From Halobacillus litoralis (lineage in GTDB: Bacteria > Bacillota > Bacilli > Bacillales > Halobacillaceae), in contig NZ_CP129017.1 of NCBI RefSeq assembly GCF_020524085.2, positions 1 through 53,464 on the forward strand: 53,464 bases of DNA, written 5' to 3'. Under the pieces are notes generated by a model, which did no database searches, was not told where the DNA came from, and was given only the letters and a program-made list of their open reading frames with translations. Numbering within the stretch: the first letter of the stretch is position 1; each line of letters opens with the position of its first letter. Made by a program: the position numbers and the translations under genes. Shown in pieces: positions 291 through 51,479 of the stretch.

Positions 291-335
291 GGGGGTAGAG
301 GGCTTTCTTATTGCCCCTGCCCCATTTCTATTACT
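291..335 (+). terminator. Possible weak terminator after the capsid gene
   Basis: An imperfect GC-rich hairpin, with a GGGG/CCCC outer stem (292-295 with 320-323) and GGGC/GCCC inside, is followed by a T-rich stretch. It could attenuate transcription between the abundant capsid message and the connector genes. The stem has mismatches, so this is tentative. Confidence 0.35.
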
Positions 336-353
336 TTTTAAAGGAGTTTCAGA

Positions 354-401
354 ATGATAACAATTCAGAAACCTAAACCACTAATTCCACCTATGGAATA
401 A
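354..401 (+). CDS. 15-residue peptide ORF with strong ribosome site
   Basis: The frame MITIQKPKPLIPPME follows a near-ideal AAAGGAG site at 340-346. It lies between the capsid gene and the TTG-started gene at 415, whose own ribosome site overlaps the peptide's stop region. It may be a real micro-protein or only a translational relay for the next gene. I recognise no family, and the proline-rich sequence gives no function. Confidence 0.4.
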   Translation: MITIQKPKPLIPPME

Positions 402-414
402 AGGAGAGATTGAT

Positions 415-615
415 TTGGCATACAGGGCAAAGGCAACTAAACGAATGGTACTAAAAGAGCGAACGATCCAAGCTGGTGAAACTGCTGACTTTACTGATAA
501 GGAAGCTAAGGCTTATAAATTCGCTCTCACAGATATTGAGAAGAAAGAAAATAAGAAAGGAAAAGGTAAGCAAAAAGATGCTTCACCAGAAGGTACAGAA
601 GAGACAGAAGAATAA
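415..615 (+). CDS. Small lysine/glutamate-rich protein in the head-connector operon
   Basis: 66 residues, TTG start with AAAGGAGAG at 400-408. The N-terminal half (YRAKATKRMVLKERTIQAGETADFTDKEA) looks like a compact beta domain. The C-terminal third is low-complexity and charged (KKENKKGKGK, then EGTEETEE). Genes of this size and place in Mu- and SPP1-like head operons are usually small accessory head or connector proteins. I do not recognise the family; the assignment rests on position between capsid and head-tail connector. Confidence 0.6.
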   Translation: MAYRAKATKRMVLKERTIQAGETADFTDKEAKAYKFALTDIEKKENKKGKGKQKDASPEGTEETEE

Positions 616-628
616 GGGAGTGTAACAC

Positions 629-1033
629 ATGGCATATTGCACACCACAAGATGTGAGGGTGTATATTCCACTTATTACTGAACAGGCTTTCTCAGATTCA
701 AAGGTTCAGACTTTCATTGATAAGGCTGAGGCTGTGGTGAATGGATCTCTTAGGGGACTCTATGAAGTACCCTTTGGGACTGCCCCACAGATCATCAAGG
801 ATATTACTGCTGAGTACACTGCTTATCTTGTTTACAGGACAGTGATGAGCGACAACAGCCCAAACTCTTCTGAATATGCTCAAGAGCTTAAGAAAAGCTC
901 TGAAACTAAGCTGGAAATGCTTAAGCAGGGTGAGCTTGCTATTGAGGATCAGGCAGGAGAGAACTTGGTTGGAAGTGTGAAGCAGGATAGCCCATATTTC
1001 TCTATGGATGATGTGACACCTTGGCAAACATGA
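629..1033 (+). CDS. Head-tail connector protein (DUF1320 / gp36-like)
   Basis: 134 residues with a good GGGAGTG site upstream. It opens with YCTPQDVRVYIPLITEQAFSD, then a helical segment VQTFIDKAEAVVNGSLRGLYEVPF and a further helix with the IKDITAEYTAYLVYR pattern. That is the usual architecture of DUF1320/gp6-type proteins that form the ring below the portal. It is the first of the connector set (629, 1030, 1532) in the usual Mu-like order. Its stop overlaps the next start as ATGA, indicating translational coupling. Family assignment is by recognised pattern, not by a search. Confidence 0.75.
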   Translation: MAYCTPQDVRVYIPLITEQAFSDSKVQTFIDKAEAVVNGSLRGLYEVPFGTAPQIIKDITAEYTAYLVYRTVMSDNSPNSSEYAQELKKSSETKLEMLKQGELAIEDQAGENLVGSVKQDSPYFSMDDVTPWQT

Positions 1034-1948: not shown

Positions 1949-1957
1949 GGGGGCAGG

Positions 1958-2193: not shown

Positions 2194-3096
2194 GTGGCTT
2201 TTCATGGACACGACTCATATGTAACATATGGCAAAGAAACAAACTTTGGTACAAAGGCTAGTAGCCCTGACATTTGGATTGGAATTATTCAATCCTTCTC
2301 ACCAGAGGAAAGCAATAACCTACAGACTCAATATGGTCTGGGATCAAGGAACTTTATTCAATCAAGGCTAGGTGCTTCTAACTTTGGTTTCTCAGTAGAA
2401 TATCTGGTGCAAGACCTTCACATTATGGAGTATGTGCTAGGTCAGGTGACAGACAATGGGGATGGAACATTCGACTTTGCAGAGTCTAACGATCTACCTT
2501 CTGCAACATTCCAAGCTGGTGTCATTAACCCTTCTGGGGATGACTTCATTCGAGAGTATGTTGGCTCTAAGCTAGACAGCTTTACTCTTTCTGCAAGTAC
2601 AGAAGAAGCCCTGACTGCTGAGGCTGAATGGATCGCAAAAGAGCTAGATGATTCTGTAGTATCAGGATCACAGCCAGTAGCAGATACTTCTAGTTACTTC
2701 ATGTTCTATGAGGGTAACATTACGATTGATGGTGTCCAGCAAGGTCTAGTCGAAGAGTTTGAGCTTGAGGTTAGTAATGGGCTGGAAAGGAAGTATGCAA
2801 TTAATGGCGAGCGTGTACCAGCTAGAATCCTTGAGGGTAACAGGGAATATACCCTTTCTCTATCCTTCACCTTTGAAGATGAGGCACAGTGGGATTTATG
2901 GAAAGCTGGCACAGAGTTTGACACAGAACTTACTTTCACTGCCCCAGATGGTCGAACTTTCACAGTCACAGCGACAGGTGGTAAGTACGATTCAAACGAA
3001 ATCGAGCTTGGTAACGAGGACAACCTTGTGCAAGAGCTTGAAGCTAGGGTTAAATCAGTGAGCGCAACTTATGACGATGCTACAGGTGGCGCATAA
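2194..3096 (+). CDS. Major tail tube protein
   Basis: About 300 residues. I place the start at GTG 2194 because AGGAG at 2181-2185 is 8 nt upstream, whereas the earlier GTG at 2185 falls inside that ribosome site. The protein begins VAFHGHDSYVTYGKETNFGT and is rich in beta strands, with paired 'SGDDFIREYVGSKLDSFTLS' and 'NREYTLSLSFTFED' segments as in tail tube folds. It is followed by a strong terminator, as usual for the most abundant tail protein. Next come the chaperone pair and tape measure, which fixes the role by synteny. Confidence 0.8.
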   Translation: MAFHGHDSYVTYGKETNFGTKASSPDIWIGIIQSFSPEESNNLQTQYGLGSRNFIQSRLGASNFGFSVEYLVQDLHIMEYVLGQVTDNGDGTFDFAESNDLPSATFQAGVINPSGDDFIREYVGSKLDSFTLSASTEEALTAEAEWIAKELDDSVVSGSQPVADTSSYFMFYEGNITIDGVQQGLVEEFELEVSNGLERKYAINGERVPARILEGNREYTLSLSFTFEDEAQWDLWKAGTEFDTELTFTAPDGRTFTVTATGGKYDSNEIELGNEDNLVQELEARVKSVSATYDDATGGA

Positions 3097-3790: not shown

Positions 3791-6610
3791 ATGGCTTCAC
3801 AAAAGTCAATAGATATTATCATTGAAGCTCATAACAGGGCTTCAAAGGAATTAAGTAAACTCTATCAAGATATGAATAGAGTTGAAGAGTTTGGAAGAAC
3901 TCTACAGGATGTTTCAAAAGGATTCTTGATGTTTGGTGGCGCTGTAGCTGGTGGCGCTGGGCTTGCTACTGCTCAGTATGCAAAGCTAGAGCAGGTCTTA
4001 GCTGACACTGCTTCTATCATGGGTAGGACTAAAGGCGACTTCACAGACCTAGAGAAAACAGCTAGGGAATATGGTAATACAACCTCTTTCACTGCTGAAC
4101 AGTCTGGTCAAGCCATGAAGGTCTTGGCTCAGTATGGTTATGGTGCTAAGGATATGCAGAATCTACTTAACACTACCATTAAAACCTCAACAGCCCATCA
4201 ATATGACCTCACAAGGGCTACTGAAATTCTAGTATCTCAATTCAAGGTCTGGGAAAAGCAAGGCTACACTATAGCTGACATTTCAGACGTTATGTCCAAG
4301 GCGACCAACATTTCAAGCTCTAGTATGGAGAGATTCAGATACTCTCTGAAATACCTTTCACCTATGGCTAGTGAGTTAGGGGTATCATTCGAGGAAATGA
4401 CTGCTCAGATGGCTCTACTATCTGATGCTGGTATCAATGCTGAAACAGTAGGTACTTCACTCAGGAGTATTTATTCGAGGCTACTTGATCCATCAAAACA
4501 GGCTAAGAAGGTGCTAGAAGAATATGGCTTGACTATGGAAGAGCTTAACCCACAGACCCAAGGCTTTGCTAATGTGATTGAGACAGTTTCCAAGGCTAAC
4601 ATGAGCGCTGGTGATACCTTTGCAGTGTTTGGTCAGGAAGCATCAAGCGCTATCAATGCTTTCACAGGTCGAGGGGCAGATGCTCTAAGAGAGTACGAGA
4701 AACAGCTTAACAATGCCAGTGGAACAATGGAACAGATGTATGACACTCAAGTTGCCACACTGATTAAACAGCTACAAATTCTATGGTCTAAGATCAAGGA
4801 ATTTTCTTATGTAATTGGTAAGGTCATGATGCCATATATCAAGCAGGCTGTATCAGCCTTGCAGAGCTTCATGGACTGGCTGAATGGTTTGGATCAGAGT
4901 ACCAAGAAAACGATAGCTCAAGTAATTATCCTTACTGGGGTGGTTGCTAGTATTGCAGGGATTTTCTTGTTTGCCAGTGGAACGCTGGTTCTGATGGCTA
5001 CTGCCATGACTAAGCTGAAAGGGCAACTCTCTGCTCTAGGTGGCTACAAAGGGATTTTCAAGGTTCTATTTGCCCCATTAGGAAGAGTCTGGGGCTTGAT
5101 TATGAAAGTAGGAAGAGCTTTCTTAATTGTAGCTTCACACTTAATGAGGTTTATTAACCCAGTAACCATTGTAATCACAACAGTTATCTCACTAGCTGTA
5201 CTGCTTTACAAGGCATGGACTAATAATTGGTTTGGGATCAGAGATAAGACCAAGATAGTTATGGATGCAGTAACCTCATTCATCCAGAAGGCAACAAACT
5301 GGATCGTGATGGCATGGAACAAAACTATTAATTGGTTCAAGACCTTGCCAGCTAAGCTAAACACATGGATTGTTGGTGCTTGGCAGGGAGTAGTTACATG
5401 GGTGACTAACCTAGTAAGCTCTCTCAGAACAAGTATTTTCAACTTCTTTGTAGGTATCTTGACTGACACAGGGCAAACACAGGCTCAGGCAGTCGCTACA
5501 GTGAGACAGGCTTGGACAAACATTAAGAACTTTTTCATTCAGACGTTTAACATTCTGAAATTCTTGTTCTTTGATGTTTGGGTAACTCTATTCAACTTCC
5601 TTAAAGTGAAGTCAAACCAGATGTGGCAGTATGTTGTTCTGATCTGGAATGGGGTTTATAACTACCTTGCAACAAAACTTAACCAGATCAAGGTGTTTTT
5701 CTCTGCTGTGTGGAACGCTATTTGGACAACAATACTCAAGCCTATCCTAATGGCAATCTGGAATTTCATTAAGGTAGTCTGGACTAATATAGTCACTCAG
5801 ATTCAAATTGCAATGACGATATTGAAGGGTATCATTTCTGCTTCATGGTCATTGATCTGGGGAGTAATTAGAGGCATCCTTTCAGTAATCCTTGGATTCA
5901 TCAAGGCGAGCTGGACAACCATTACTAACTTCACTCAATGGGCTTGGCAGTCCATCAAGTCTGTAATTGATATGTTCCTACAGATCATCAAGAATATTAT
6001 TGCTTTCTGGGTAAATCTTATCGCTGGAAACTGGGATGAGGCTTGGCAGAATGTCATTAATATTTTAGAGACAGTCTGGGAAACAATCTGGGGCATTGTT
6101 GATGGTGGACTTGACACAATCATTGAGACTATCGAAGGTTGGTTCAATATAGCCAAGAACTCAGGTGAAGGCTTTATGACTGCCTTTGCAGATGGTGTAA
6201 GTGGCGCTATTGGTGCTGTCACAGGTGCTATTGATGGAGTCCTAGAGAAAGCAAGGAACTTCCTGCCATTCTCTGATGCGAAAGAAGGACCCCTCTCAGA
6301 CTTGACATTATCAGGTTATTCCATGATGACAGCCTTTGCTAAAGGTGCTACTCAGGCTAAGTCATTATTAAGTAGCAAGATTGGTAATACCCTTTCTGGT
6401 GCTATGAATGGTGGCATGAGTGGTAAATATGCAATCGAAGGAATGAGAAGCAGAGGCATGAGGGGTGGATTTAGGCAACAGCAACCTTCTGCCCCATCCA
6501 ACAATGTTGAGAAGATTGAAATTAATATCAATGGTGCTGATGAACAGGACAGAGAGGCACTTGCAGATGAGGTTATGAGGCAGATTCAAGACCAACTAGG
6601 GGAGGGCTAA
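3791..6610 (+). CDS. Tail tape measure protein
   Basis: 939 residues. Residues 1-60 are helical, followed by a hydrophobic glycine-rich stretch (FLMFGGAVAGGAGLATA). Residues 70-340 carry the conserved phage tail tape measure core (LADTASIMGRTKGDFTDLE, MASELGVSFEEMTAQMALLSDAGI, TVGTSLRSIYSRLLDPSKQ). The middle (about 370-760) has several hydrophobic segments and a W-rich pseudo-repeat with Trp about every 11-15 residues (WTNNWFG, WNKTINWF, WQGVVTWV). It sets tail length and is ejected with the DNA. It follows the chaperones by 20 nt, as expected. Confidence 0.95.
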   Translation: MASQKSIDIIIEAHNRASKELSKLYQDMNRVEEFGRTLQDVSKGFLMFGGAVAGGAGLATAQYAKLEQVLADTASIMGRTKGDFTDLEKTAREYGNTTSFTAEQSGQAMKVLAQYGYGAKDMQNLLNTTIKTSTAHQYDLTRATEILVSQFKVWEKQGYTIADISDVMSKATNISSSSMERFRYSLKYLSPMASELGVSFEEMTAQMALLSDAGINAETVGTSLRSIYSRLLDPSKQAKKVLEEYGLTMEELNPQTQGFANVIETVSKANMSAGDTFAVFGQEASSAINAFTGRGADALREYEKQLNNASGTMEQMYDTQVATLIKQLQILWSKIKEFSYVIGKVMMPYIKQAVSALQSFMDWLNGLDQSTKKTIAQVIILTGVVASIAGIFLFASGTLVLMATAMTKLKGQLSALGGYKGIFKVLFAPLGRVWGLIMKVGRAFLIVASHLMRFINPVTIVITTVISLAVLLYKAWTNNWFGIRDKTKIVMDAVTSFIQKATNWIVMAWNKTINWFKTLPAKLNTWIVGAWQGVVTWVTNLVSSLRTSIFNFFVGILTDTGQTQAQAVATVRQAWTNIKNFFIQTFNILKFLFFDVWVTLFNFLKVKSNQMWQYVVLIWNGVYNYLATKLNQIKVFFSAVWNAIWTTILKPILMAIWNFIKVVWTNIVTQIQIAMTILKGIISASWSLIWGVIRGILSVILGFIKASWTTITNFTQWAWQSIKSVIDMFLQIIKNIIAFWVNLIAGNWDEAWQNVINILETVWETIWGIVDGGLDTIIETIEGWFNIAKNSGEGFMTAFADGVSGAIGAVTGAIDGVLEKARNFLPFSDAKEGPLSDLTLSGYSMMTAFAKGATQAKSLLSSKIGNTLSGAMNGGMSGKYAIEGMRSRGMRGGFRQQQPSAPSNNVEKIEININGADEQDREALADEVMRQIQDQLGEG

Positions 6611-8097: not shown

Positions 8098-11000
8098 ATG
8101 GCAATCAGACCTATATATGAAGTATGGAAGATTGATGAGAATAACAATGAGATTCAAGAGTTTCCTTTTCTGAAGGTAAACTATAAAAACAAGATGATGA
8201 AAATACCTACTTTCTACTTTACGATTCCTAGAAATGCTGAAACTGAGCTTTCTGCCCCAGCTAAGGGTGACAAGATCAAGATTACTAGGAATTATAATGA
8301 TGCCTTTGCAGGTTTCATTGAGCATGTAGAAGTGAGAGAAACTACACTCTATTTCAAAGGTAGAGGGGTTTCTATGGAGTGGCAAGACTATATAAGAAGT
8401 AGCAGGCTCTCTTATTCTAATGACCAGACAAGGTCAGTCATTAATGATATGGCTTATGACATTGGTTGGAATTTGGATGGAGTTGAGCAGATAGGCTTCA
8501 ATAAATTCAAAATTGACTTCCAGAACTACCAAGACAGGCTGAAAGAGCTTGCAGTCAGGAATAATGCAGAGTTTAGGTTCAATGACTTTGACAGACTGAT
8601 CCAGTTTGGCTCTGAGGTTGGGGATGACCTACACCTTGACGTTAAATTCATGAGAGGCTACAACATGAACGATCTTTCAGTCAAAAAGGATGAGCAAGAA
8701 ACCTATGATTATGTCATTGCCCTTGGTGCTGGTGATGGAGTCAATCAGCTAGTCGCTACTGCTGGCAGTGGGAACAAGCGCAAGGTCTTTAAGAATAAGG
8801 AAATCGAAGACCAAGGCGACCTACAGAACTTTGCAGACAAGAAACTAGCAGAAGGCGACCAGCCAGCTATTGTCAGGTATAAATGTAAGATTGATAACTC
8901 TATCTTTAATTTTGATATTGGAGATACAGTGTGGGTTGAAGACGACAAGAACATGATCTCTCAAAAGATGAGGATTATGGAGTACAGCCTAACATTCGAT
9001 GAGACAGAACAGATTGAGGTATCACTGGCAAACAGAAACGAGACTCTAGTTGACTTCTTCAAGAACATGGAGAAAGGGATCGACACTCTTTCTAATGTCC
9101 ACCACTCTTCTGCTGTCCAAGTAGGAAAGATGGTCATTACAGATGAGAACAATATCCCTAACAGCCTAGAGGTTGAAGACAGTACCTTTGTAAACAAGTC
9201 CAGTGGCAAGACCATTGGTGACATTGAGGCTGATGTTGAGGCGAACAAGATTGTTAAGCAACCCCTTGCCCCATCTAACCCTAGTGATGGTCAACTTTGG
9301 CTAGATACTGACTCTACACCTAATGTTGTTTACAGGTGGGATGAAGGAAGCTCTTCATGGAAAGAGTCAAGCGCTGTGAGCGCAAGCCAGATAGGGGCAG
9401 AAAAGGCTATCTACAAGCAAGGTCATGCACCAGCAGACACAGAAGCTCTCTGGCTAGACACTGACCCCACCCCAAACGTCTTGAAGCGCTATGACGATGG
9501 ACAAGCTAACTGGGTGAAAGTTACACCTACCCAAGCTAGTGAAGTGGGTGCTTATAATACTTCTGAAATTGACAACATGCTTTCTGACTTTGTGGATGCC
9601 ACTGTTTACAGCAATAAGATCGCTGACCTTGAGGATCAAATAGATGGGAACATTACTTCTCACTTTGGCTCTGGTGTACCAACCCTCAGTAATAGCCCTG
9701 CTGTGAACTGGGACACGACAGCTAAGAAAGATGCTCACTTAGGCGACCTTTACTATGACAATGACACTGGCAGAGGCTACAGATTCCAAAACAATGGATC
9801 GTACTTCTGGAAAGAGCTTAAGGATTCAGATATTCAAAAGGCTCTATCAGATGCCTCAGATGCTCAAGACACAGCAGACAGCAAGCGAAGAGTCTTTGTG
9901 GTACAGCCTACAGTACCTTATGACAAAGGTGATTTATGGGCTGATGATTCTAGTGGCAGTGAGAAAGTCTATCGAGCTACAGTTTCTAAGTCAGATAGTG
10001 GCTCATTCTCTCAAAGCGACTGGAAGCTCATTTCAGATATTACGAATGAGAACACAGCCAATGACACTGACAATGTAAATGGTGAGTCTTCTTCAAGTGT
10101 CCAAGGGAAAGCCCAAGATGGTAAGGATGCCAAGGACAAGATAGACTCTGATGTTGGCTCAGAAACTATTGAGAACACTACAGACTCTCAGAGCAAGGCT
10201 AATGATGCAAGGGATGAGGCAATACAGCACACTGACTTTACGACAGGAAACCTAGTGAACAATGTTATGAAATCAGGTTCTACCTACAGATGGCATGTTA
10301 AATCTAGTTACACTGATGATTCTACCCTATCTGTGGCTGATGTGACATTCGACACTGAGAGCGTGAAGGGATTCGAGCTTAACGCTACCACTGACAGTAT
10401 GGTTCTATCAGACAGGATCAAGGTGGATATGTCCAAGGCTTATGAATTAAGCCTATGGATGAAAGCAGATGCAGGCGACCCAAGCGCTAAAGAATACTTT
10501 GGTATTTATGCCTTCAACTCTTCTGGAAGTAAGGTAGGAGTAAAAGAGGTTTCTATATCTGATGGATCAGTCAATGACAGCGACAACAGCAACCCTTATT
10601 TCTGGGATGGACAGACAAGCACTAACTGGGTAAGGCGAACAGCTTACTTGCTACCATTTGGCTTCAATTCTGCTGATGTAGTGAATATGGGTATCAATGT
10701 TGAAGATGCTTTCATTATGAATGGTGACATTGATGAGATTGAATTTAGGTTCTTGAATTGGTCGAACAATGGAACAGCCAGAAGCATCTATGTGACCAAT
10801 ACTAAGATGATTGAGGTATCTGGTGGCATTAAAGATATTATCGACAAGTCAAAAGAGGATGCTGAAAACTTCACTACTGGCTATGCAGAGAAAAAGGTAA
10901 CGAAAGGCACAGCCTTCCCTTCTGCCCCAGATGTGGGACAGCTTTTCATTGATGAGTCAATACAGCCTAATGTTTGGTACAAGTATGATGGCTCTGAGTG

Positions 11001-14000
11001 GGTAAACCTCACACCACAGTATGCTGATGAAATCAAGTACACTGATGGGCAAGATGTTGAGACACTACAGCCAGCCCAAGGAGGCGCTGATGTAACTGGA
11101 CAGAATACTGCTAACGATACTCAGAAAGTCAATGGTACTGCTTCTAGTACAGTTGAGAGTAACGCTTCTGCTGGTAAAGGTGCTAGTGATGATCTGACGA
11201 ATAACGCTAACTTTGACAGAGCTAATCATGTGATTGTTTATGATGATGGAACGAATGTTGACAGCCTTAAACCTGCTTCTGCTGGGGCAGATGTCACAGG
11301 GGATAACACTGCTAATGATACTTCTAATGTAAATGGAGAATCAGCTTCAAGCGTTAAGAGCAAGGCACAAAAAGGCTCTGATGCTAAGGATAAAATCACT
11401 TCTGATGTAGGAAGCAACACGATTGAGAACACCACTGATGCTCAAAGCAAAGCTAACACTGCTGAGAACAATGCTAAGTTTGATGGTGGCTGGGGCATTG
11501 CCTACAATGTCAAAGATGGTGATGGTGCATTTCTACAGCACCCTGATGGATCAGCTTTAGATGATGCTTACACTTATGAGGTCACAGCGAGGACAAAGGG
11601 AACGAGTACAGAATCGACAGCCATTGCAACATTCCAGTCTAAGGGTGATGGAAATGGATGGGATCTTATTCACATCTACAGAATGGGAACAAGCTCTAAT
11701 CATCCAAGATTCTATTTATCCAATGGCAAGCCAGCAATCAGCACATGGCACACAAGCTATTACTATGTTGAGGTTTCCCACAGCAGGAAGCGAGGCAGAA
11801 AATCAGCTTCCAAGGCTGTAGAAGACAATGCCAAGAGCTACACTGAGGGCTGGTCAGAGCAAAATGCTGATGTAACAGGCAACAATACTGCCAATGATGT
11901 TCAGACTGGTGCAGGCAAGGCAGTAGTTGAGTCTGGTGCTGACAAGACAAGCAACAATACTGCTAATGATGTTCAGACTGGTGCAGGCAAAGCTGTGGTA
12001 GAGTCTGGTGCTGACAAGACAAGCAACAATACTTCTGCTGACACTTCCAAGGTCAATGGTACTTCTGCCAGTACAGTTAAAAACAATGCTTCTGCTGGTA
12101 AGAGCGCAAGTGATGATCTGGACAGCAATGTGAACATTGACAGGGCAGGTAACAGAGTCAAATACTCTGATGGAAACGATGTAGACGATCTGCAACCCAG
12201 TGAAAGTGGCGCTACTTCTGGTGCTGACTGGGAAACCAATGTGAGCAACAAGCCTAAGACATTTAGAGTTGTGACTGTAGGTAACTCTTCTACAACCCAT
12301 CCCACTGGCGCTGGTATCTATAATGAGAGTGGCAGTAAGATTGATGCAGGTAGCAGGTCTTATAACCTCTCAGTCCTTGATAGGACAACTCAGACATGGG
12401 ATAGTCATACGACTTATGATGTTTATAGCTCTGCTTCTGAGGCAGGAAACCTAGCCACTGCCCTAAACAACCTTGGATCAGACAAGATCATTGTACTATT
12501 CACTTACGATGAGCCAAAGAAAAACAGGCTCAACAATTCATTGCCACAGGCTATCAAGAGAGCTGGTGGTAGTAGAACAATCTTTGAGTCCAGCAACTTC
12601 AAGCATAGGGGTGCTTATATCCTTATTGGTATTGGAGGCATTGGTGAAGGCAATGGACTAGAGCTTTATGCTGGTGATGTGGATAGTGACTCAGACGCTT
12701 GGGTTGAAACCAAAATAACTGTAGAGAAAGGGAACATTCAACTTGGAACGACCAAGAGCAAAATGGATGCAGACGATCTACAGGGCAAAGTAGATGGGGC
12801 AACTCAAATTAAAGATTACTCTATCACTACTAGCTTGATCGACACTCAAGGCTTAGATGCCTCAGTAGTCCTTGCAAACTATGTAGATGCTGACAATGTG
12901 GAAGTTAAATCTTCCAACAGTGACACTACGATCAATAGTAATGGGGTTACTGTCAAGGGTGGCTCATTCTATCTCAAGGATGATAACACGAATGACACCT
13001 ACTCTATTGTTCCTAAGACTAACCTGATCGCTGACCATTCCTTTGAAATGCAAGAAGGGTTTGGAACAGTTGATGGCAATGGCTATCAAGATATTGTAGA
13101 CAATGGCAATGATGAGCTAAGGAATTGGAACTTGATTGGTTCACCTAAGCTATTGAGCGCTATTGAGGCAGGCATTTATGAGGGTGGAGTTGACACCCCA
13201 TTTGGTGGTCAATCTGTGATCGTAAACCATGACCACTATGTTAGGCAAAGGGTAAATGTCAGAGCTAATGAGCAATATTCAATATCATTCCATGCCCACT
13301 ATCAGAATATTACTGCCACACAGGGGACACCTCAGTTAGTTGTCCAGTTTCTAGGTGATGGATCAGTAGTACAAACTGATTACTACAGCTTCTCTAAGCC
13401 AGATAATACTTGGGGCAAGTACGACAGGCACATTGTTGAAGGTATCTATGCACCTAACGATATGTCAAACTATGCTGATGCTCACATGAGGCTTTACTTT
13501 AGGACAGAAGGGAGTAACTATGTTGGCATTGATGGTGTCCAAGTTGTCCAAAGTCCAACAGCTACAAGCTACGATCCAGAAGACCAGATTTGGAAGCTAA
13601 GGCGAGGCATTGACAAGTACCCTCTTATAGATGCTGTAGAAGGCACAGACATTGGAGGTATAAACACTCTTGGCGCTAACACTATCAGTGGTAACGTTGT
13701 CCAAGGTGGCGCATTTAGAGGTTCTGATGTTGACCTTGATGGTGTACTAAGAATGACTGACCTTACCAATGGTTACAGGACAGTCCTTCAAAGATGGGGG
13801 AATGGAGAGTTTGGCTATCCTCTACTCTTACAAGGTGGCGACACTACGATTATTGCAGGTGGTGAAGGTGGTAACAAGCTCAAGGACAATGTGAGTGGAG
13901 AGCATCTTTATCTTGGTGCTGATGGTGATGTGATTGTTAAGACAGACCTCACCAACAAGAGCGCTTCTTCTGCCCCACACTTCAAGTTTGATAACACTGG

Positions 14001-29025: not shown

Positions 29026-29075
29026 CTATTCCATAAAGGGAGAGAGCAGAGACTAGCAGAGGAAGGATGAGAAAC

Positions 29076-33339: not shown

Positions 33340-33406
33340 ATAGTAAGAAAGTTAGGGCAGGGGCTAGAAATCCTGCCCCATTTCATTGTTTAGAAAGGGT
33401 GTCAAT

Positions 33407-36207: not shown

Positions 36208-36544
36208 GGGCAATAGGAATTACAAGCGAGGCTATCAGACAGAATACAGATGTGTTAAATCATTTGATGAAATAGACCCTAGCTGGGCTACCAGAAGCCC
36301 ATCATCCAAGGGTATGTTTGATGTAACAGCAGTGACTAGAGAAGGAACGTTCTTGATCCAGTTAAAAAGGACAAAGCGAAAGGCTTATTATTCTGCTTAC
36401 AGGCATGAGATTGAAGGCATCCAAGAATGGCTCAAGAAATGGGGCAGGAAACCAAGTTGGCTACACTGTCAATTCTGGGTATGGACTGATCGCAAAGGCT
36501 GGACAAAATACAACATTACTAAAACAAAGGTGGAAGAGATATAA
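36200..36544 (+). CDS. Holliday-junction resolvase-like nuclease (Hjc fold)
   Basis: 114 residues from ATG 36200 behind GGAAAGGA, overlapping the previous gene by 8 nt. It reads KRGYQTEYRCVKSFDEI, RSPSSKGMFDVTAV, and TFLIQLKRTKRKAYYSA. This is the E...S..D...(Q/E)xK pattern of archaeal-type Holliday junction resolvases, with Q in place of the usual E in the last motif. It probably resolves branched DNA before packaging. Small restriction-like nucleases share the fold. Confidence 0.75.
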   Translation: MGKGNRNYKRGYQTEYRCVKSFDEIDPSWATRSPSSKGMFDVTAVTREGTFLIQLKRTKRKAYYSAYRHEIEGIQEWLKKWGRKPSWLHCQFWVWTDRKGWTKYNITKTKVEEI

Positions 36545-37732: not shown

Positions 37733-37919
37733 GAGCATAAAAAGAGGCTTTCAAAAGGGGTTGAGCTAACTATTTAAGGTTCAGTAAAACCCTACCATGT
37801 GAGTCAGATGTAATGGGGCAGGACATACGCTGGCATGGAACAAAGACTAAGGGCTATTTTCACAGCTATTAATTGGCTAGTGAAGGTAGTCCTTCTTTGT
37901 GTATAAGGGGGGTTTTATT
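37733..37919 (+). other. Non-coding leader or small RNA behind late promoter D
   Basis: About 190 nt without a credible ORF lie between the promoter and the gene at 37920, far longer than the leaders of the other late promoters. It contains a GGGGCAG site at 37817 and a GAAGG TAGT CCTTC hairpin followed by TTTGTG near 37882-37897, which could end a short transcript. A regulatory RNA is possible; nothing more can be concluded. Confidence 0.35.
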
Positions 37920-39378: not shown

Positions 39379-40026
39379 ATGAGCTTAGACACGAAGAGTA
39401 TAGAAAACCAGATCATGCACTATTCCTTAAAGAATATTAGCTTTTCTTTTCCACCCACTGAGTTTGGGAAAGGAGTATCAAGAGGCATAAGCGCATATGG
39501 AGAGTTGAGAGAAGAGAATCCCTATAGCATACCAACAGAAGAGCAATTCACTGATCTGTTCGTACAAAAGACCTTGCCCTTATTCGAGGTTAGCAAGGTG
39601 GGCATGGACTATCAGAGGTATAAGGTAGGGCTACAAGCCAGAGCAAAGAGAGCTTATAAATCTATGGTGAGAGAAGAACATTGCATCAAGAGGATGGAAG
39701 AGCTTTATGAGCCTTATGGATTCTCAGTATTATATGATGATGAGACAGACTGGCGAAAAGGTGTAGATGCTACAGTACAGGATCATGAGACTGGCTTAGA
39801 GTTTTATGTTCATATCTTTATCGACACCAAGAAATCACGACAGCACAGAGAAAGTAAAGCCACAAGAGGTAAGGGTAGAGACTTCACTGGACACCTTGAT
39901 CTGCCCCTTGATATGGGGAACGCTAAGAAATGTGGTGACTTTCTATTATATCCTGACCCTCAGCTAATGAAATTCATGTACGCTATGAGATCAGAGCATA
40001 GGGATAAAGGAACTAAGATAGGCTGA
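39379..40026 (+). CDS. Unknown protein, possible PD-(D/E)XK-like nuclease fold
   Basis: 215 residues behind AGGAGAGG. The middle reads RAKRAYKSMVREEHCIKRMEELYEPYGFSVLYDDET, a long helix and strand, then WRKGVDATVQD, and FYVHIFIDTKKSRQHRESK, with PLDMGNAKKCGDFLLY near the end. The helix / D-containing strand / charged 'IDTKKSR' strand order is reminiscent of restriction-endonuclease folds, but a canonical E/D-x-K is not clean. It follows the DndC-like gene and ends in a terminator. The function is not established. Confidence 0.65.
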   Translation: MSLDTKSIENQIMHYSLKNISFSFPPTEFGKGVSRGISAYGELREENPYSIPTEEQFTDLFVQKTLPLFEVSKVGMDYQRYKVGLQARAKRAYKSMVREEHCIKRMEELYEPYGFSVLYDDETDWRKGVDATVQDHETGLEFYVHIFIDTKKSRQHRESKATRGKGRDFTGHLDLPLDMGNAKKCGDFLLYPDPQLMKFMYAMRSEHRDKGTKIG

Positions 40027-40151: not shown

Positions 40152-40417
40152 TTTTAACGAGTTTTTCATACAGTTTTCTACAGGTTTTTGTAGAGATTTT
40201 GATGAGATTTTACTGAGTTTTCTACATAGGATTTTATAGGATTTTCTGCTGAGTTTTAGCTGAGTTTTCTACAGAAATTCAGTGTGATCCTGTCTAAAAA
40301 TGCTCTAGGATTTTCACCTGATTTTCTCTAGGATTCTACAGGGATTTTCTACTGATTTTCTTGTGGGATCATGCAGAGATTCTATAGAAAAATGGGGCAG
40401 AAGGTTAAATGGATTTT
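40152..40417 (+). repeat. Phased TTTT-tract array (intrinsically curved DNA)
   Basis: Degenerate units of the form G-A/G-TTTT-CTACAGG carry T4-5 tracts starting at 40152, 40162, 40174, 40185, 40197, 40208, 40218, 40232, 40242, 40254 and 40265. The array resumes at 40311, 40322, 40345, 40356 and 40414. Spacing is about 11 bp, one helical turn, the classic recipe for sequence-directed bending. No gene is present on either strand. Candidates are a replication origin, a packaging (pac) site or a nucleoprotein centre. Confidence 0.8.
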
Positions 40418-42317: not shown

Positions 42318-42725
42318 ATGTTTACGATCAGAGAGGGCAAGAGCTTGCAACAAGGGGAAAGAGTAGAGGTTTATTACAATCTGCATAAAGGTGGCTTCTC
42401 CATCAAGTCACTGGACAAGAACAGCCCAGATAAAGGCAAGGTAGTGGCTTACAGTTCAGAGGTCAAACTTGAGGGCGCTTCTTTCCATGTGAATGAGAAC
42501 GCTTTGAGCAAAATTCTAGCAGAGAATAGAAAGCGTGTTTATGCAGTGGTCAGGGGCTATTATATGGGCAACTCAGTACAGGCAGAGCTTGACGAACATA
42601 CACCAGTAAAGATTAACCCATACACCTGCCCCAAATTCACCTGCAAAGAGACTGGCAACATTATGGACAAGGCAGACAGCGTTATATTTCATGGTAGGGG
42701 GTGTGGTTATGTCATTGAGGAATAA
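42318..42725 (+). CDS. Hypothetical protein of the ardA island
   Basis: 135 residues behind AAAAGGAG. Beta-rich N-terminal half (EGKSLQQGERVEVYYNLHKGGFSIKSLD), a central VYAVVRGYYMGNSVQ, and a C-terminal Cys pair (YTCPKFTCKETG). It resembles small proteins that travel with ArdA on Gram-positive mobile elements; I cannot name the family. It overlaps the next gene by 17 nt. Confidence 0.65.
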   Translation: MFTIREGKSLQQGERVEVYYNLHKGGFSIKSLDKNSPDKGKVVAYSSEVKLEGASFHVNENALSKILAENRKRVYAVVRGYYMGNSVQAELDEHTPVKINPYTCPKFTCKETGNIMDKADSVIFHGRGCGYVIEE

Positions 42726-43165: not shown

Positions 43166-43497
43166 GTGTCCAGTGATCTGGCGAAATATCCATTTTTTAA
43201 ATTGTCAGAAAATTCAGAAAACGATTTTTGACCAGATCAACCAGCCAGCCAAGCTAGAGCGATCCATATAAGCCAGCCAGTAGAATCCAGACCCATGAGA
43301 GCCACAGGAGAGCGCCAGAGCGTACCCAGCCCACTGGGTTGCAGGTTTACCCCTTGCCAGTTGAACCCCTGCCCCAGACACTTGCCCTATTATCCTTTAT
43401 GCCTACCCAGAGGGCAAGACTTTGCCCAGCCCATCTAGGGCTGTGCCATGTTTACCTCATACAGAAGGACAGGGAAGGGCTTCTCAGTAGAGAAGGG

Positions 43498-43621: not shown

Positions 43622-44183
43622 GAGACTTCACACAGACACCAGAACAGAGCAATCAATAATATCATAATCAAAGCTCATGAAGATCGTACTGGACAGACTG
43701 GCACAATATTAGCAGGAATATATCACAATATTAGATAGAGTATTGATATATAAATGACTAGAATAATTGTTTGTTTATTTACTGTGGAGATAGTAAACAA
43801 AATACTGTTTTCTCATATCATATAAGTCTGGACTGAGTCAATGGGGTTTCTACAGATAATAATATTCAGAAAATTCCCAATATTGGCGCTATCCTTAATA
43901 TTATTAATAGTCAGACAATTGGCTATGGCTGTCCCTCATCTTTCATTTTTGAGATTTTCCAACCCCTTCTTTACCCTGCTAAAGTGACACCCTACTTGAT
44001 CTGCTAAGTCGATCCTAGAATGTAACCCCTATCTCGATTTTTTTATTTTATCATTTTTCAACCCTAATTGGTTATAAGTCATGACACAGCTTTATAAGCT
44101 GGCTTACTGCCTCCATATAGATAGGAAGACACAAGGGCAAAGGGGGCAGGCAGGGTTAAACAAATAATCATTAAGATTAAATG

Positions 44184-44262: not shown

Positions 44263-44586
44263 GTGAAAGTAATCGAGATCAGACCACTGCATCAAGGGAT
44301 GGATGCAATTAGTGTAGTAGAATTGGATGGTAGCTTGGAGAGCTTACAGGAGGCTGTTGGTGGACTCATCGAGCTTGCCCCTGCCCCAGCTAGTGATTTT
44401 CCTTACCTCATGCTTACAGATGAAGAAGGAATGTTGAAAGGCAAGGATATTAATTCCTTTGGTCATGCTGGCATTACATTGCTACTTAAGAATGATGAAG
44501 ATGATCCAACAGAAATGAGAGGGCTAACTGACAAAGAGATAGACTTCTTCTATAATGTATTTAGCATAGCTGTAGGAGAGCAGTAA
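44263..44586 (+). CDS. DUF3846-like protein
   Basis: 107 residues from GTG 44263. I chose this start because the GAAAGGAT site at 44248-44255 has the same spacing to its start as in ardA and the 48102 gene; ATG 44254 falls inside that site. The sequence KVIEIRPLHQGMDAISVVELDGSLESLQEAVGGLIELAP, then LTDEEGMLKGKDIN, matches the DUF3846 pattern common on Gram-positive plasmids and phages, often near ArdA. Molecular role unknown. Confidence 0.7.
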   Translation: MKVIEIRPLHQGMDAISVVELDGSLESLQEAVGGLIELAPAPASDFPYLMLTDEEGMLKGKDINSFGHAGITLLLKNDEDDPTEMRGLTDKEIDFFYNVFSIAVGEQ

Positions 44587-44828: not shown

Positions 44829-45176
44829 ATGGAAATTAAAAAAGGATTCAAATACACGATTGTTGCAGACTGTGACATTAATATCTTCGCCACAGGCATC
44901 CTGACACTCACTAACTTCAAGAATACACATGGGGCAGTAGTCAAGGATTTCAGAACATTCATGGGGACTGATATGGTAAGTGTGGTCACTTCTATAGAGT
45001 TTGGGGATGAACTTCTTAGAATGTTTGGTGGAAGAATCAAGGCACAATATGAGGTCAACATTGCAGAGATTGACCAGAACGATCTATCAGATGAGGCTAT
45101 CGACCAGATCAATGCGCTTGAGAATGAGTTGGACTTTGGTGAGACTGACTACAAGCTGATTTTCAAAGAAGATTAA
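44829..45176 (+). CDS. Hypothetical protein of the accessory region
   Basis: 115 residues from ATG 44829 behind AAAAGGAGAG. Beta-rich N-terminus (FKYTIVADCDINIFATGILTLTNF) and acidic helical C-terminus (DLSDEAIDQINALENELDFGE). No family recognised. The upstream sequence holds CCTAC and ACTATAG, but at non-consensus spacing. Confidence 0.6.
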   Translation: MEIKKGFKYTIVADCDINIFATGILTLTNFKNTHGAVVKDFRTFMGTDMVSVVTSIEFGDELLRMFGGRIKAQYEVNIAEIDQNDLSDEAIDQINALENELDFGETDYKLIFKED

Positions 45177-45211
45177 CCCCCTGCCCCAACTTTTATGTAT
45201 AAATTGTAGCA

Positions 45212-48101: not shown

Positions 48102-48581
48102 ATGGCTACTGCAACAGGAACGATCTTAAAGACTTTTCAAGAGTTTCAAGAGCTTCCAGAAATCGAGCAGAAGCAAACAATGAAAGACTACAGAAAGTTA
48201 TTTACTGCAAAGGAAGTCCAAGAGGCTTGGGAAATTGATACTTATAAGTATTACAAGTTGCTAGATCAACTAGGGATCAAAACTCAGAACAGAAAGCCTA
48301 GAAGCGACAAGAAAGAAACAAGCAAAGAGGTATCTATTAAGACTCAGGCTGGGAAGAGTCAACTTGATGCCCCTGCTATTAACAGAGGTATTAACCCAGA
48401 GTATTTACATGAAGCGAAAATAGCCCCTGCCCCAGAGCCAAAGGGTATGCACTTTGGGATCAATGATAAATATACAGGCAAAGAGATTGCAGAAGAGCTA
48501 GAGAAGTTTGGTTTTCTCTTGGGCGATTCTGAAAGGCAATTCGAGGTCAAGCTAAGCATTCAAGAGGTGAAGAAGAAATGA
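48102..48581 (+). CDS. Putative DNA-binding regulator
   Basis: 159 residues; leader ends ACTGAAAGGATGTTGACC as for ardA. Residues 10-65 look like a small helix-turn-helix (FQELPEIEQKQTMKDYRKLFTAKEVQEAWEID, YKYYKLLDQLGIK). The middle is basic and disordered, and the C-terminus has a short ordered segment (YTGKEIAEELEKFGFLLGD). Separate early-type expression amid late genes suggests a regulatory or packaging-control role, which is not demonstrable. Confidence 0.6.
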   Translation: MATATGTILKTFQEFQELPEIEQKQTMKDYRKLFTAKEVQEAWEIDTYKYYKLLDQLGIKTQNRKPRSDKKETSKEVSIKTQAGKSQLDAPAINRGINPEYLHEAKIAPAPEPKGMHFGINDKYTGKEIAEELEKFGFLLGDSERQFEVKLSIQEVKKK

Positions 48582-49080: not shown

Positions 49081-49096
49081 TTGTTAGCTTCCTGCC

Positions 49097-49116
49097 CCTA
49101 CTATGCTGAACTATAG
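49097..49116 (+). promoter_or_regulatory. Late promoter motif (copy G), head operon
   Basis: CCTAC TATGC TGAACTATAG, with GAGGGTGAT and ATG 49133 downstream. Tandem with copy F, 36 bp apart, so head genes have a doubled late start. Confidence 0.75.
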
Positions 49117-49132
49117 CAGAGGGTGATAATAA

Positions 49133-50581
49133 ATGGGAGTCGTGAATTATTTTAAAGAAAGAATAAATGGAAAACAGCCCAAAGAATTAAATGAAGACGA
49201 ATTGATGGGCGAACTGAGCCTCTATAAGCTCAATGCTTGGGAAGACTATGCCAATGGTACAGACACTAACCCAGATATGATAGGCATTGAGACATACAAT
49301 AAGATGCGCTCTACTGACAGTACAGTGAAAGCAGGTATTGAGTCCTTGAAGCTACCTATCCTTGCTAAAGGATATGATTTTAAATTCGAGGACAGAGAAA
49401 TGGAACGAAAAGAAGAGAATAAAGAGAAGGTCGATTTTCTTATTGAAGTATTCAATAACATGGATCACCACTTAGACAAGACCCTAGAAGAAATGCTCAC
49501 AGCTATCTGGGCTGGCTTTAGTGTAACTGAGCCAGTTTATCAGAGAATCAAAGAGGGTGAGTTTAAAGGAAAACTAGGTCTTAAGAAAATGAAAGTCATT
49601 AACCCAGCTAATATCAGCTTTGAGGTCAATGATTATGGTGATGTAATCAACATTGTCCAAGAGATAGGCGACAGAAAGATTAAGATTCCAAAGGAAAAGG
49701 CTATTCACTATGTTCACAGTGGAGAGTTTCAGAATCCTTATGGCAACTCTGATCTACAGGCTGTCTATAAGCATTGGTTTATTAAAGATAAGGTCATTAA
49801 ATTCTCTAATATCGCTCTTGAGCGAGTAGGGACACCCTTGATCTATGGAAAAGCCAAGAACTCAAATGAGGTAGGAAAGCTACAGAATATCCTAGACCAA
49901 GTTATGAGCAGGAACAGCCTAGCAATCTCTGGGGCAGATGAAATAGGGGTACTTGATAGCTCTAGGACAATGCCATTCCTAGATTATATCAATCACCACA
50001 ATAAGATGATGCTAAGAGGTCTGATGATCCCATCATTGCTACTGGGCAATGACTCTGGACAGGCAGGCTCTTATAGTCTCTCAGAACAGCACTTCAATAT
50101 TTTCTTGTTTAGGTTGCAGTCGATCCAAACAGACCTAGAAAATGCAATCAATGAGAAAGTAGTTAAGAGGCTGATTGACTTAAACTTTGGCAAACAAGCT
50201 GTCTATCCAAAAATCAAATTCAGACCTCTAATGGAGAAAGATAAGAATACACTATCTGATATATTCTTTAAGCTAGTCAATGCTCAGATTTTAGACCCAG
50301 AATTAGACTCTGACTGGATTCGTGACGAGCTAGGGCTACCACAAGCCAGCCAAGAACTTAAGGACTATGTCAAAGAAGAGAAAGACATTGAGCTTGAGCA
50401 GAAGAAGGTGGCACTTGATAGCGCTAAGAAGAGCAATGAGAAGCTAGATCAGGAAGAGGAAGAATCAGAGGAAGACGATAAAGAAGGCAAGGGCAACCCT
50501 ACTTCTAATGGCACTACTGACTCAGGCTCACACCCTTACAACAGCAGTGGCAGGGGCAAACCTGATGATAAGGAAAAGTAG
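49133..50581 (+). CDS. Portal protein, DUF935 (Mu gp29-like)
   Basis: 482 residues. MGELSLYKLNAWEDYANGTDTNPDMIGI and MRSTDSTVKAGIESLKLPI, the wing region TEPVYQRIKEG, and LIYGKAKNSNEV, then MLRGLMIPSLLLGNDSGQAGSYSLSEQHFNIF match DUF935 portals. The last 70 residues are acidic and disordered (DQEEEESEEDDKEGKG). Twelve copies form the DNA gate at the capsid vertex. Mu F, Mu I-like and capsid genes follow in order. Confidence 0.92.
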   Translation: MGVVNYFKERINGKQPKELNEDELMGELSLYKLNAWEDYANGTDTNPDMIGIETYNKMRSTDSTVKAGIESLKLPILAKGYDFKFEDREMERKEENKEKVDFLIEVFNNMDHHLDKTLEEMLTAIWAGFSVTEPVYQRIKEGEFKGKLGLKKMKVINPANISFEVNDYGDVINIVQEIGDRKIKIPKEKAIHYVHSGEFQNPYGNSDLQAVYKHWFIKDKVIKFSNIALERVGTPLIYGKAKNSNEVGKLQNILDQVMSRNSLAISGADEIGVLDSSRTMPFLDYINHHNKMMLRGLMIPSLLLGNDSGQAGSYSLSEQHFNIFLFRLQSIQTDLENAINEKVVKRLIDLNFGKQAVYPKIKFRPLMEKDKNTLSDIFFKLVNAQILDPELDSDWIRDELGLPQASQELKDYVKEEKDIELEQKKVALDSAKKSNEKLDQEEEESEEDDKEGKGNPTSNGTTDSGSHPYNSSGRGKPDDKEK

Positions 50582-50658
50582 GAAGCCATTCAGAGAGCCA
50601 GAGTGACAAATTAAGATTCAGAGAGGGCTTTGTTGATGTCAACAAGGCTCTCACTACT

Positions 50659-51444
50659 TTGGATGGCAATGAGAATGAGTTTGTCGATCTAATGCTAAGG
50701 CATGTTTTGGATCCAAATTATCTGAATAATCTGATAAATTCCCCTACAGACAAGAACTATAGGAAATGGAACGAAAACACTAAGAAAATATTTGAATACT
50801 TCTTTTACAAAACATTCCTAGCTGGAATGAACGATGCAGGAGAAGAGATTCAGAAACAGGCTAGTTTCTTTGAAGGATATGCAGAAGATGATCCACAAAT
50901 TGAAGTTTCATCTATTGAAGAGCAGATTCCAGAAGAAGCATTATCTTGGTATGAGAGCTATGCAATCTATTTAACTATGGTATTCGAGCAAGACGTTCTG
51001 AATGAAGTCCAAGGCAAGGTCAGAGAGTACCTTGAGAAAGGTATTAATGTCAGAGATATTCCTAAGCTACTAGCTGAGAGTGAAAAGCTAGAGAAGTTTA
51101 CTAAGAATAGACTCAACACGATTGCTAGGACAGAAAGCACTAAGGCTTACAACTCAGGAAGAGTCGCTGAATATCACAATAGCAGGATTGTTGAGGCTGT
51201 CCAGTACAGCGCAATTCTGGACAATAGAACAACTACTTTCTGTAGAGGTTTGAATGGCAAGATCATGGAGAAATCAAGTTACTTGGTCGCTCTTTATCAG
51301 CCACCTAATCATTTTAATTGTAGGTCGCTTTTAGTCCCTATAACTAAATATGATGAATGGGAAGAATCAGACTTCACAGGAGTTGAAAAGCCTCAAGATG
51401 GATTCGATAACCCAGCATGGAAACCACTTAAACCATTGAATTAA
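50659..51444 (+). CDS. Minor head protein, Mu F / SPP1 gp7-like
   Basis: 261 residues from TTG 50659, the only standard start in the frame. The core KNRLNTIARTESTKAYNSGRVAEYHNS, then YSAILDNRTTTFCRGLNGK and YQPPNHFNCRSLLVPIT is the Mu F/gp7 signature. The frame stays open 87 nt further upstream (after a TAA at 50569), giving protein-like sequence SDKLRFREGFVDVNKALTTL but no start codon, and TTG 50659 has a poor ribosome site. The true N-terminus may arise by frameshift from the portal gene or by a non-standard start. Confidence 0.82.
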   Translation: MDGNENEFVDLMLRHVLDPNYLNNLINSPTDKNYRKWNENTKKIFEYFFYKTFLAGMNDAGEEIQKQASFFEGYAEDDPQIEVSSIEEQIPEEALSWYESYAIYLTMVFEQDVLNEVQGKVREYLEKGINVRDIPKLLAESEKLEKFTKNRLNTIARTESTKAYNSGRVAEYHNSRIVEAVQYSAILDNRTTTFCRGLNGKIMEKSSYLVALYQPPNHFNCRSLLVPITKYDEWEESDFTGVEKPQDGFDNPAWKPLKPLN

Positions 51445-51452
51445 ATATGTTC

Positions 51453-51479
51453 CTGCCCCATTAAGTTGGGGTGGGATTT
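51453..51479 (+). terminator. Weak hairpin between Mu F-like gene and protease gene
   Basis: CCTGCCCCA and TGGGGTGGG pair around TTAAGT, followed by ATTTTA. Its left arm is a copy of the over-represented octamer. It may tune downstream expression rather than stop it. Confidence 0.4.

Follow-up and report, generated by a model that had tools for sequence, protein, structure and literature searches.

Each DNA strand of a phage-plasmid and its relatives carries its own ruler of a short word, with about one site per 2 kb, in the four genomes where the word was found: the window (the whole analysed stretch of 53,464 bp, which is an entire 53-kb phage-plasmid) and three relatives. The word is an exact heptamer, CTGCCCC, with a preferred eighth base. 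As a tentative best explanation, CTGCCCC followed by A or T may be a Chi-class signal that serves the processing of DNA ends or forks, direction-dependent and owned by the phage-plasmid family, not by the host.

Abundance of the word in the 53-kb element

The window possesses 40 exact copies of CTGCCCCA, 24 on the plus and 16 on the minus strand (Table 1), vs. a mean of 1.68 and a maximum of 5 in 100 dinucleotide shuffles, which agrees with the original prediction of about 40 copies, far above chance. The enrichment ranking proposed there places CTGCCCCA first among the octamers of the window (40 vs. 1.47 under a first-order model). Seven of its eight coordinates are exact, while 23285 is off by two (23287 being correct), and the announced spacing of about 1.3 kb was measured at 1.31 kb for both strands together. 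Flank preferences are weak, with a pyrimidine before the word and T/C after it.

Intergenic DNA, which accounts for 11% of the sequence, does hold copies as predicted (8/40), the other 32 lying inside ORFs. Only four of the latter lie outside three main frame/strand classes (of six), which together account for 28, and "all frames" was therefore too strong a statement. The peptide types are SAP/TAP/PAP (11), xGAx (10) and LP[QH] (7). The enrichment survives a codon-shuffle control (500 trials; mean 2.29, maximum 7), in which synonymous codons were permuted within ORFs (a mechanical set of 73, plus strand) and bases within intergenic stretches, and the view that protein sequence does not explain it was therefore upheld. 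That the word is a compositional or coding by-product, with no role as a DNA word, would fit the three easy peptide types of most genic copies, but is hardly conceivable in view of the 40 copies seen vs. 2.3 after codon shuffling, the same enrichment in diverged relatives and the lack of per-strand avoidance in one-mismatch words. A codon or composition artefact was rejected.

Table 1. Copies of the word in the window and proteins considered as readers or partners
Feature	Position	Strand	Remarks
CTGCCCCA	317..324	+	exact copy; intergenic
CTGCCCCA	780..787	+	exact copy
CTGCCCCC	1949..1956	-	minor last base
CTGCCCCA	2939..2946	+	exact copy
CTGCCCCT	4672..4679	-	minor last base
CTGCCCCA	6489..6496	+	exact copy
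CTGCCCCA	8252..8259	+	exact copy; co-located with phiT1 site
CTGCCCCT	9393..9400	-	minor last base
CTGCCCCA	10922..10929	+	exact copy
CTGCCCCA	11283..11290	-	exact copy
CTGCCCCA	13970..13977	+	exact copy
CTGCCCCA	15422..15429	+	exact copy
CTGCCCCA	15532..15539	-	exact copy
CTGCCCCA	17452..17459	+	exact copy
CTGCCCCT	17762..17769	-	minor last base
CTGCCCCT	18827..18834	+	minor last base
CTGCCCCA	19102..19109	-	exact copy
CTGCCCCA	20560..20567	+	exact copy
CTGCCCCA	21036..21043	-	exact copy; intergenic
CTGCCCCA	22448..22455	-	exact copy
CTGCCCCA	23287..23294	+	exact copy
CTGCCCCA	24272..24279	-	exact copy
CTGCCCCA	25336..25343	+	exact copy
CTGCCCCA	26183..26190	-	exact copy
CTGCCCCA	27860..27867	+	exact copy
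CTGCCCCA	28342..28349	-	exact copy
CTGCCCCA	28974..28981	+	exact copy; intergenic
CTGCCCCA	29957..29964	-	exact copy
CTGCCCCA	31433..31440	+	exact copy; co-located with phiT1 and p_ACL01CRY2 sites; PAP peptide conserved
CTGCCCCT	31764..31771	-	minor last base
CTGCCCCA	33373..33380	+	exact copy; intergenic
CTGCCCCA	33834..33841	-	exact copy
CTGCCCCA	34746..34753	+	exact copy
CTGCCCCA	35603..35610	-	exact copy
CTGCCCCA	36440..36447	-	exact copy
CTGCCCCA	37814..37821	-	exact copy; intergenic
CTGCCCCA	38406..38413	+	exact copy
CTGCCCCT	39901..39908	+	minor last base
CTGCCCCA	40393..40400	-	exact copy; intergenic
CTGCCCCA	42626..42633	+	exact copy
CTGCCCCA	43369..43376	+	exact copy
CTGCCCCC	44142..44149	-	minor last base
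CTGCCCCA	44381..44388	+	exact copy
CTGCCCCA	44930..44937	-	exact copy
CTGCCCCA	45181..45188	+	exact copy; intergenic
CTGCCCCA	48427..48434	+	exact copy
CTGCCCCT	49092..49099	+	minor last base
CTGCCCCA	49930..49937	-	exact copy
CTGCCCCA	51453..51460	+	exact copy; intergenic
Tandem helix-turn-helix (HTH) protein, 160 aa	17633..18115	+	candidate reader; two HTH_3 stretches by Pfam
Cas4-like/RecB-family nuclease	34128..34889	+	possible partner; PF12705 1e-13, phrog_1706 3.4e-30; four genomes
Hjc-like Holliday junction resolvase	36185..36544	+	possible partner; PF01870 8.2e-5; four genomes
215-aa protein, predicted PD-(D/E)XK nuclease-like fold	39379..40026	+	weaker candidate reader

Host chromosome and related elements

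The 3.9-Mb host chromosome is not enriched, with 78 copies of CTGCCCCA (as control, the reversed word has 54, counted over the whole genome), and CTGCCCCT has 124 copies in the host vs. 111 for its control. "Genome-wide" is thus true for the 53-kb element and false for the chromosome, and the suggested check on the host genome and its Chi showed no shared enrichment. Since over-representation is absent from the chromosome, the host's own Chi (AddAB) was rejected; of the Chi-like site offered originally, there stays a phage-owned, direction-dependent signal, which fits the spacing.

Haemophilus and Neisseria have uptake sequences (USS/DUS) at a density of about one per kb, which are likewise exact short words without orientation bias. 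Their enrichment, however, is in the genome of the bacterium itself, and they are functional both ways round, whereas here the chromosome is not enriched and the spacing is strand-specific. The Haemophilus sequences are described as functional in either orientation, and some authors call the USS/DUS spacing even (PMC1939737). Given this description and the unenriched chromosome, where a competent bacterium's genome would carry the enrichment, the suggested uptake mark is unlikely.

Three collinear relatives of the window, an IMG/VR phage, phiT1 and p_ACL01CRY2, stem from other sources (one was isolated on Rossellomorea), and their protein identity to the window is mostly 40-60%. The heptamer has an equal density in all four; its last base is mostly A in the window and the IMG/VR phage, and mostly T in phiT1 and p_ACL01CRY2. 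Conservation of each copy's position, suggested as a check, gave a mixed answer: a few sites co-locate with those of the window (2/20 mapped in phiT1 and 1/17 in p_ACL01CRY2, for 0.1 expected each; 1/7 and 1/6 in two partly overlapping IMG/VR pieces), and most places differ. The places of the word therefore mostly turn over while its density stays, and positions kept as regulatory sites were mostly not found. No significant protein cost was detected at the sites: in 59 comparisons, residue identity is 0.44 there and 0.49 in the flanks (P 0.58 for 25 sites).

Outside the family, all 31 distant loci of at least 10 kb recovered with polymerase or portal profiles hold at most two copies of either octamer. 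Scans of genome contigs provided no further relatives, or portal relatives at 25-28% only, and among 44 genomes of the host's family the portal profile matched the window's own genome only. Neither the word nor its spacing pattern is described among the literature matches listed, and the papers listed for CTGCCCCA itself deal with other topics.

Strand-specific spacing

Per strand, the sites are about 2.1 kb apart, with most gaps of 1-2.5 kb and a CV of 0.48-0.65. Over the four genomes, 32 same-strand pairs closer than 1 kb were seen vs. 86 expected, while opposite-strand pairs amount to 94 vs. 89. When strand labels were permuted with positions fixed, 62.1 same-strand pairs were expected, and 32 was reached in 0/20,000 trials; each genome alone is also low (P 0.001-0.005). 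By contrast, the 16 one-mismatch heptamers that occur have, summed, 317 canonical same-strand neighbours within 1 kb vs. 330 expected. For per-strand evenness, CTGCCCC ranks first of 303 tested heptamers in the window, 416 in phiT1 and 498 in p_ACL01CRY2. In this last genome, the heptamer with all last bases is even (z -3.5) and the octamer CTGCCCCT alone is not (z -1.0). Minor-base sites, taken as a group, likewise avoid same-strand sites. In two outgroup phages, Blastoid and 056SW001B, no evenly spaced word as extreme as this one was seen in a test of 6- to 8-mers.

Orientation relative to genes is balanced over the four genomes (101 sense, 106 antisense), and in each of them sense sites appear more regular than antisense ones (CV 0.40-0.57 vs. 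0.52-0.78). A per-strand ruler restricted to the exact word indicates polarity and, most likely, a reader encoded by the phage; avoidance limited to the same strand points indirectly to action in one direction only. Orientation-blind binding, as for compaction or roadblock sites, is disfavoured because opposite-strand pairs below 1 kb are at chance overall, even though no CTGCCCC[A/T] pair of any orientation lies within 100 bp (16.6 expected). Possibly, if doubtfully, the word is a phage-owned, strand-resolved ruler in its own right, with polar words about 2 kb apart per strand, set by selection on interval length, and a phage protein as reader that would divide replication or repair into unit lengths on each strand. 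None of the systems compared here works in this manner, and no other is known to us that does.

The per-strand spacing also falls in the range of Okazaki fragments, and the word may, with rather low probability, mark the starts of new strands, each template strand having its own phage sites for priming or primosome loading. The element encodes a DnaB helicase of its own along with a split DNA polymerase III alpha but, among the 30 window proteins scanned with Pfam, no primase, whereas the two outgroup phages are annotated with one. Against this reading, no primase-like protein was detected in that set (host primase could serve), and a ruler present on both strands everywhere would imply discontinuous copying of either strand in every region. 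An 8-nt site, TTTGGTTA, is used by the primase of phage NrS-1, a PrimPol that reads it on a template strand, but a 3-4 nt site is reported for NrS-1 as well (PMC8718748), and here neither PrimPol nor primase was detected among the 30 proteins.

Candidate readers

The tandem-HTH protein is the best placed candidate reader. Its gene occurs in all four word-bearing genomes; by tblastn and IMG/VR scans, the only matches were three of these four, and a profile run on 397 genomes of the host's order gave a full-length match in the own genome only, with three further partial matches (about 3e-9). In the first HTH, which is nearly invariant, DNHYSRIERG is at least 90% conserved across an alignment of 22 sequences; the second HTH is not the same in A-type genomes as in T-type ones. 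Homologues of the protein are also encoded by other contigs about 50 kb long, some of them from Priestia.

Such a protein recalls the stoperators of Cluster A mycobacteriophages, in a two-strand version of which it would bind the sites, block RNA polymerase in a polar manner and silence both directions in lysogeny. Besides the restriction of the gene to word-bearing genomes in the tblastn and IMG/VR scans and its variable second HTH, this version, which we consider unlikely, is favoured by the more even sense sites and by Cluster A repressors, reported to be monomers that recognise an asymmetric site with two domains (PMC9283540). Stoperators (L5, Bxb1, D29) also resemble the word in being asymmetric, dispersed across genomes some 50 kb long and similarly numerous per strand (25 in D29); their sequence likewise shifts from one relative to another, and their reader possesses two DNA-binding domains, as predicted for the candidate here. 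However, as described in PMC6550527 and PMC9283540, they track gene direction and occupy short intergenic gaps, whereas here both directions are equally used and most sites lie in ORFs, so that half of them would block antisense transcription only. In a D29 control based on an L5-type consensus, 15/15 exact and 24/25 one-mismatch sites point the same way relative to the genes, and their spacing is not even (CV about 1.2).

The PD-(D/E)XK-like protein also occurs in the four genomes, and its predicted structure has the nucleases BsaWI, MunI and PspGI and a VRR_NUC domain among its neighbours. The word as a strand-specific site for a phage nuclease such as this one, with one strand nicked per site, is improbable; the missing pairs within 100 bp would look as if close opposite nicks were harmful, but a homologue in a contig without word enrichment weakens this protein as sole reader. 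As to the original proposal that a phage protein, either DNA-modifying or DNA-binding, recognises the word, a phage-owned polar signal fits the spacing; a modification site is conceivable but unsupported, since no methyltransferase was found among the 30 proteins scanned with Pfam.

Comparison with Chi

Bacteria are known to use polar octamers that steer DNA repair, and phages to carry or avoid those of their host; in E. coli, Chi is GCTGGTGG, read by RecBCD. Like Chi, the present word is non-palindromic, dispersed and direction-dependent, and Chi reaches very high copy numbers in some phage-plasmids (50 in P1, vs. only 8 in T5). It differs from Chi by its lack of host-chromosome enrichment, its evenness per strand and its presence in relatives from other sources. 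Chi-enriched phages are documented (PMC3784561), P1-like ones being among the strongest. The P1 sites are clustered (per-strand CV 1.34), a pattern that the window word does not share, so that phage Chi sites are not evenly spaced as a rule.

For the Chi-class signal favoured here, a phage-encoded factor would read the word on one strand during the passage of a machine, and the distance from one site to the next in the same direction would matter. The most likely machine, in our judgement, would be a processor of DNA ends or broken forks: a break anywhere would meet a correctly oriented site within about 2 kb on either side, at which resection may stop or switch to recombination. The equal use of both directions is expected for ends processed from either side, the enrichment is phage-owned, and the element carries the Cas4-like nuclease and the Hjc-like resolvase. 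On the other side, the 30 scanned proteins include no enzyme resembling AddAB or RecBCD, and the best candidate reader is of the DNA-binding and not of the helicase-nuclease kind. The regularity gap between sense and antisense sites is not predicted by a strand-symmetric process, and the P1 clustering, the low T5 count and the uneven CTGCCCCT octamer of p_ACL01CRY2 also speak against a Chi-class signal. The host chromosome has two large adjoining PF12705 frames of 1178 and 1253 aa, presumably AddB and AddA.

A phage family with diverged genomes appears to own a polar word whose last base switches between lineages, so that a comparison of relatives should lead to the reader protein. Any proposed mechanism has to account for the strand-resolved spacing, a quantitative fingerprint for which other genomes can be screened.

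The element and its relatives

The 53,464 bases of the window make up the entire second contig of a two-contig genome of 3.95 Mb and are, as the ORFs and their relatives show, a tailed phage maintained as a plasmid. The genes recognised this way are those for terminase, portal, tape measure and amidase, ParM/ParR-type partition genes plus a serine recombinase, genes for DnaB helicase, a DNA polymerase III alpha in split form, ThyX thymidylate synthase and ribonucleotide reductase, a tRNA-Arg gene and one for a sigma factor.

Using the window terminase in tblastn, two collinear relatives were found, Rossellomorea phage phiT1 (PV767480) and plasmid p_ACL01CRY2 (LC810155), while a third (IMGVR_UViG_3300018891_000003, hereafter the IMG/VR phage) came from IMG/VR. 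phiT1 and p_ACL01CRY2 are the nearest pair, with ca. 80% identity in many proteins, followed by the IMG/VR phage and finally the window (mostly 40–60%, lower for some genes). The DNA polymerase III alpha of phiT1 is split likewise, but its small ORF differs. The ribonucleotide reductase has 59% identity to that of the IMG/VR phage and only 23%, partial, to that of phiT1, which suggests an exchange of this gene. As for the PAPS-reductase-family protein, of a kind to which DndC-like proteins belong, no homologue was found in the three relatives.

Coordinates of selected features of the window
Feature	Positions	Remark
Tandem-HTH gene	17633–18115	Candidate reader of the word
Ribonucleotide reductase	26306–28462	
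DNA polymerase III alpha	29067–32682	Split in two by a 134-aa ORF of unknown function
PAPS-reductase-family protein	38028–39320	PF01507
Phage_L5_gp82 match	42318–42725	Pfam, mycobacteriophage L5 family, 8.2e-30

CpG loss is extreme in the family: the window has 638 CpG, phiT1 145, p_ACL01CRY2 19 and the IMG/VR phage (48 kb) only 4; the observed/expected ratio of the host chromosome is 1.00 (eight pieces). All CpG contexts are present in the window save CCG/CGG (2 of 638), and those of phiT1 are almost exclusively CCGG and CCGA (129 of 145). The two sets are nearly complementary, as though each phage avoided a different CpG-reading enzyme. No GGCC occurs in the window, in the IMG/VR phage or in the 50-kb pieces of the outgroup phages Blastoid and 056SW001B; the IMG/VR phage also lacks GATC.

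Abundance of the word

The octamer CTGCCCCA ranks first for over-representation in the window, with 40 copies vs. 1.68 expected from dinucleotide shuffles. The original prediction that protein sequence does not explain this excess was borne out by synonymous-codon shuffles (mean 2.29, maximum 7 in 500 trials). Its top one-mismatch neighbours are TTGCCCCA (10 copies) and CTGCCCCT (7), each with 1.6 expected; the remaining ones are mostly near background.

CTGCCCCT and CTGCCCCA have respectively 47 and 2 copies in phiT1, 40 and 10 in p_ACL01CRY2, and 8 and 39 in the IMG/VR phage, where the reversed pattern had no match. In the 50-kb main pieces, 43 copies were seen vs. 3.2 expected from codon shuffles (phiT1) and 40 vs. 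2.5 (p_ACL01CRY2). Neither octamer occurs in the first 50 kb of Blastoid or 056SW001B, and in none of 31 more distant loci (10 kb or longer) does either exceed two copies. The host chromosome (3.9 Mb) has 78 copies of CTGCCCCA (the genome total of 118 minus 40) and 124 of CTGCCCCT, the reversed-word controls, counted across the whole host genome, being 54 and 111, respectively. The lack of enrichment on the host chromosome makes a phage-encoded reader of the word most likely.

Other words were also enriched: TGCAACCTAA in p_ACL01CRY2 (13 copies vs. 0.25 expected) and GGCGGCA in Blastoid and 056SW001B (17 copies each, with ca. 1 expected from trinucleotides and ca. 3 from codon shuffling), the latter not being among the evenly spaced words listed.

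Strand-specific spacing

Over the four word-bearing genomes, same-strand pairs are depleted below 500 bp (14 vs. 43.2 expected) and at 500–1000 bp (18 vs. 43.0), while opposite-strand pairs number 44 vs. 44.5 and 50 vs. 44.1. With strand labels permuted and positions fixed, 62.1 same-strand pairs under 1 kb were expected vs. 32 seen, a count reached in none of 20,000 trials. The deficit holds in every single genome (P 0.0014, 0.004, 0.005 and 0.002), and whichever genome is omitted, same-strand pairs stay at about half of expectation. On each of the eight strands the sites are 1.9–2.4 kb apart on average, and the frequency of gaps declines beyond 2.5 kb.

Of the heptamers that occur 16 times or more, with seven or more copies on each strand, CTGCCCC is the most even per strand in the three genomes ranked: first of 303 in the window, of 416 in phiT1 and of 498 in p_ACL01CRY2. 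In the latter, CTGCCCCT by itself is second of 16 (z −1.0), and therefore the A and C variants must be counted as sites there. In the IMG/VR phage, evenness is significant per strand (P 0.0005) but not for all sites pooled (P 0.13). No two CTGCCCC[A/T] sites lie within 100 bp in any orientation (16.6 expected). Convergent pairs at 300–500 bp are in excess (20 vs. ca. 9 under the null), a post hoc count uncorrected for many looks.

For the 16 one-mismatch heptamers present, canonical same-strand neighbours are not clearly avoided (317 vs. 330 expected in total): TTGCCCC has 62 vs. 64.4, CTGCCCT 40 vs. 39.4, ATGCCCC 28 vs. 31.4 and CTGCTCC, the lowest, 7 vs. 11.6. Avoidance is seen, by contrast, for CTGCCCC sites followed by a minority eighth base (19 vs. 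40.8). Therefore, all seven bases of CTGCCCC are needed, and the base that follows is preferred rather than required, the preference varying by lineage.

Turnover of positions

When window sites were mapped by protein alignment, 2 of 20 lay no more than 4 nt from a site in phiT1 (0.11 expected), 1 of 17 was co-located in p_ACL01CRY2 (0.12 expected), and 1 of 7 and 1 of 6 in two IMG/VR pieces. Places are therefore mostly unshared, yet sharing is above chance, the shared ones falling in peptides able to host the word, e.g. PAP. CTGCCCC[A/T] numbers 47, 49, 50 and 47 copies per genome: the density of the word is conserved rather than its places.

Reading direction and possible function

A dispersed site active in either orientation would be evenly spaced irrespective of strand. 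Here the strands are spaced separately, and the word is therefore read directionally. It does not track transcription, since copies are equally sense and antisense to most genes (101 and 106). In all four genomes, however, the spacing of sense copies is a little more even (CV 0.46, 0.40, 0.49 and 0.57) than that of antisense ones (0.52, 0.64, 0.62 and 0.78).

The ruler, i.e. about one site per 2 kb on each strand independently, is found neither for the Chi octamers of phage P1 (50 in 94.8 kb, clustered, per-strand CV 1.34) nor for the stoperators of mycobacteriophage D29; phage T5 has 8 Chi octamers. With an assumed L5-type consensus, the stoperator sites of D29 share one orientation relative to genes in 15 of 15 exact, 24 of 25 one-mismatch (CV ca. 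1.2) and 25 of 30 two-mismatch cases; an assumed Bxb1 consensus gave zero matches. A stoperator acting on two strands, for which the tandem-HTH gene speaks, is ranked third as a reading of the word, behind a priming signal, which the site interval fits. DNA-end or fork processing (Chi-class) is ranked first, because both directions are equally used and such a process needs a nearby, correctly oriented site. Whichever machine reads it, the word is very probably a polar signal owned by the phage and kept at a given density.
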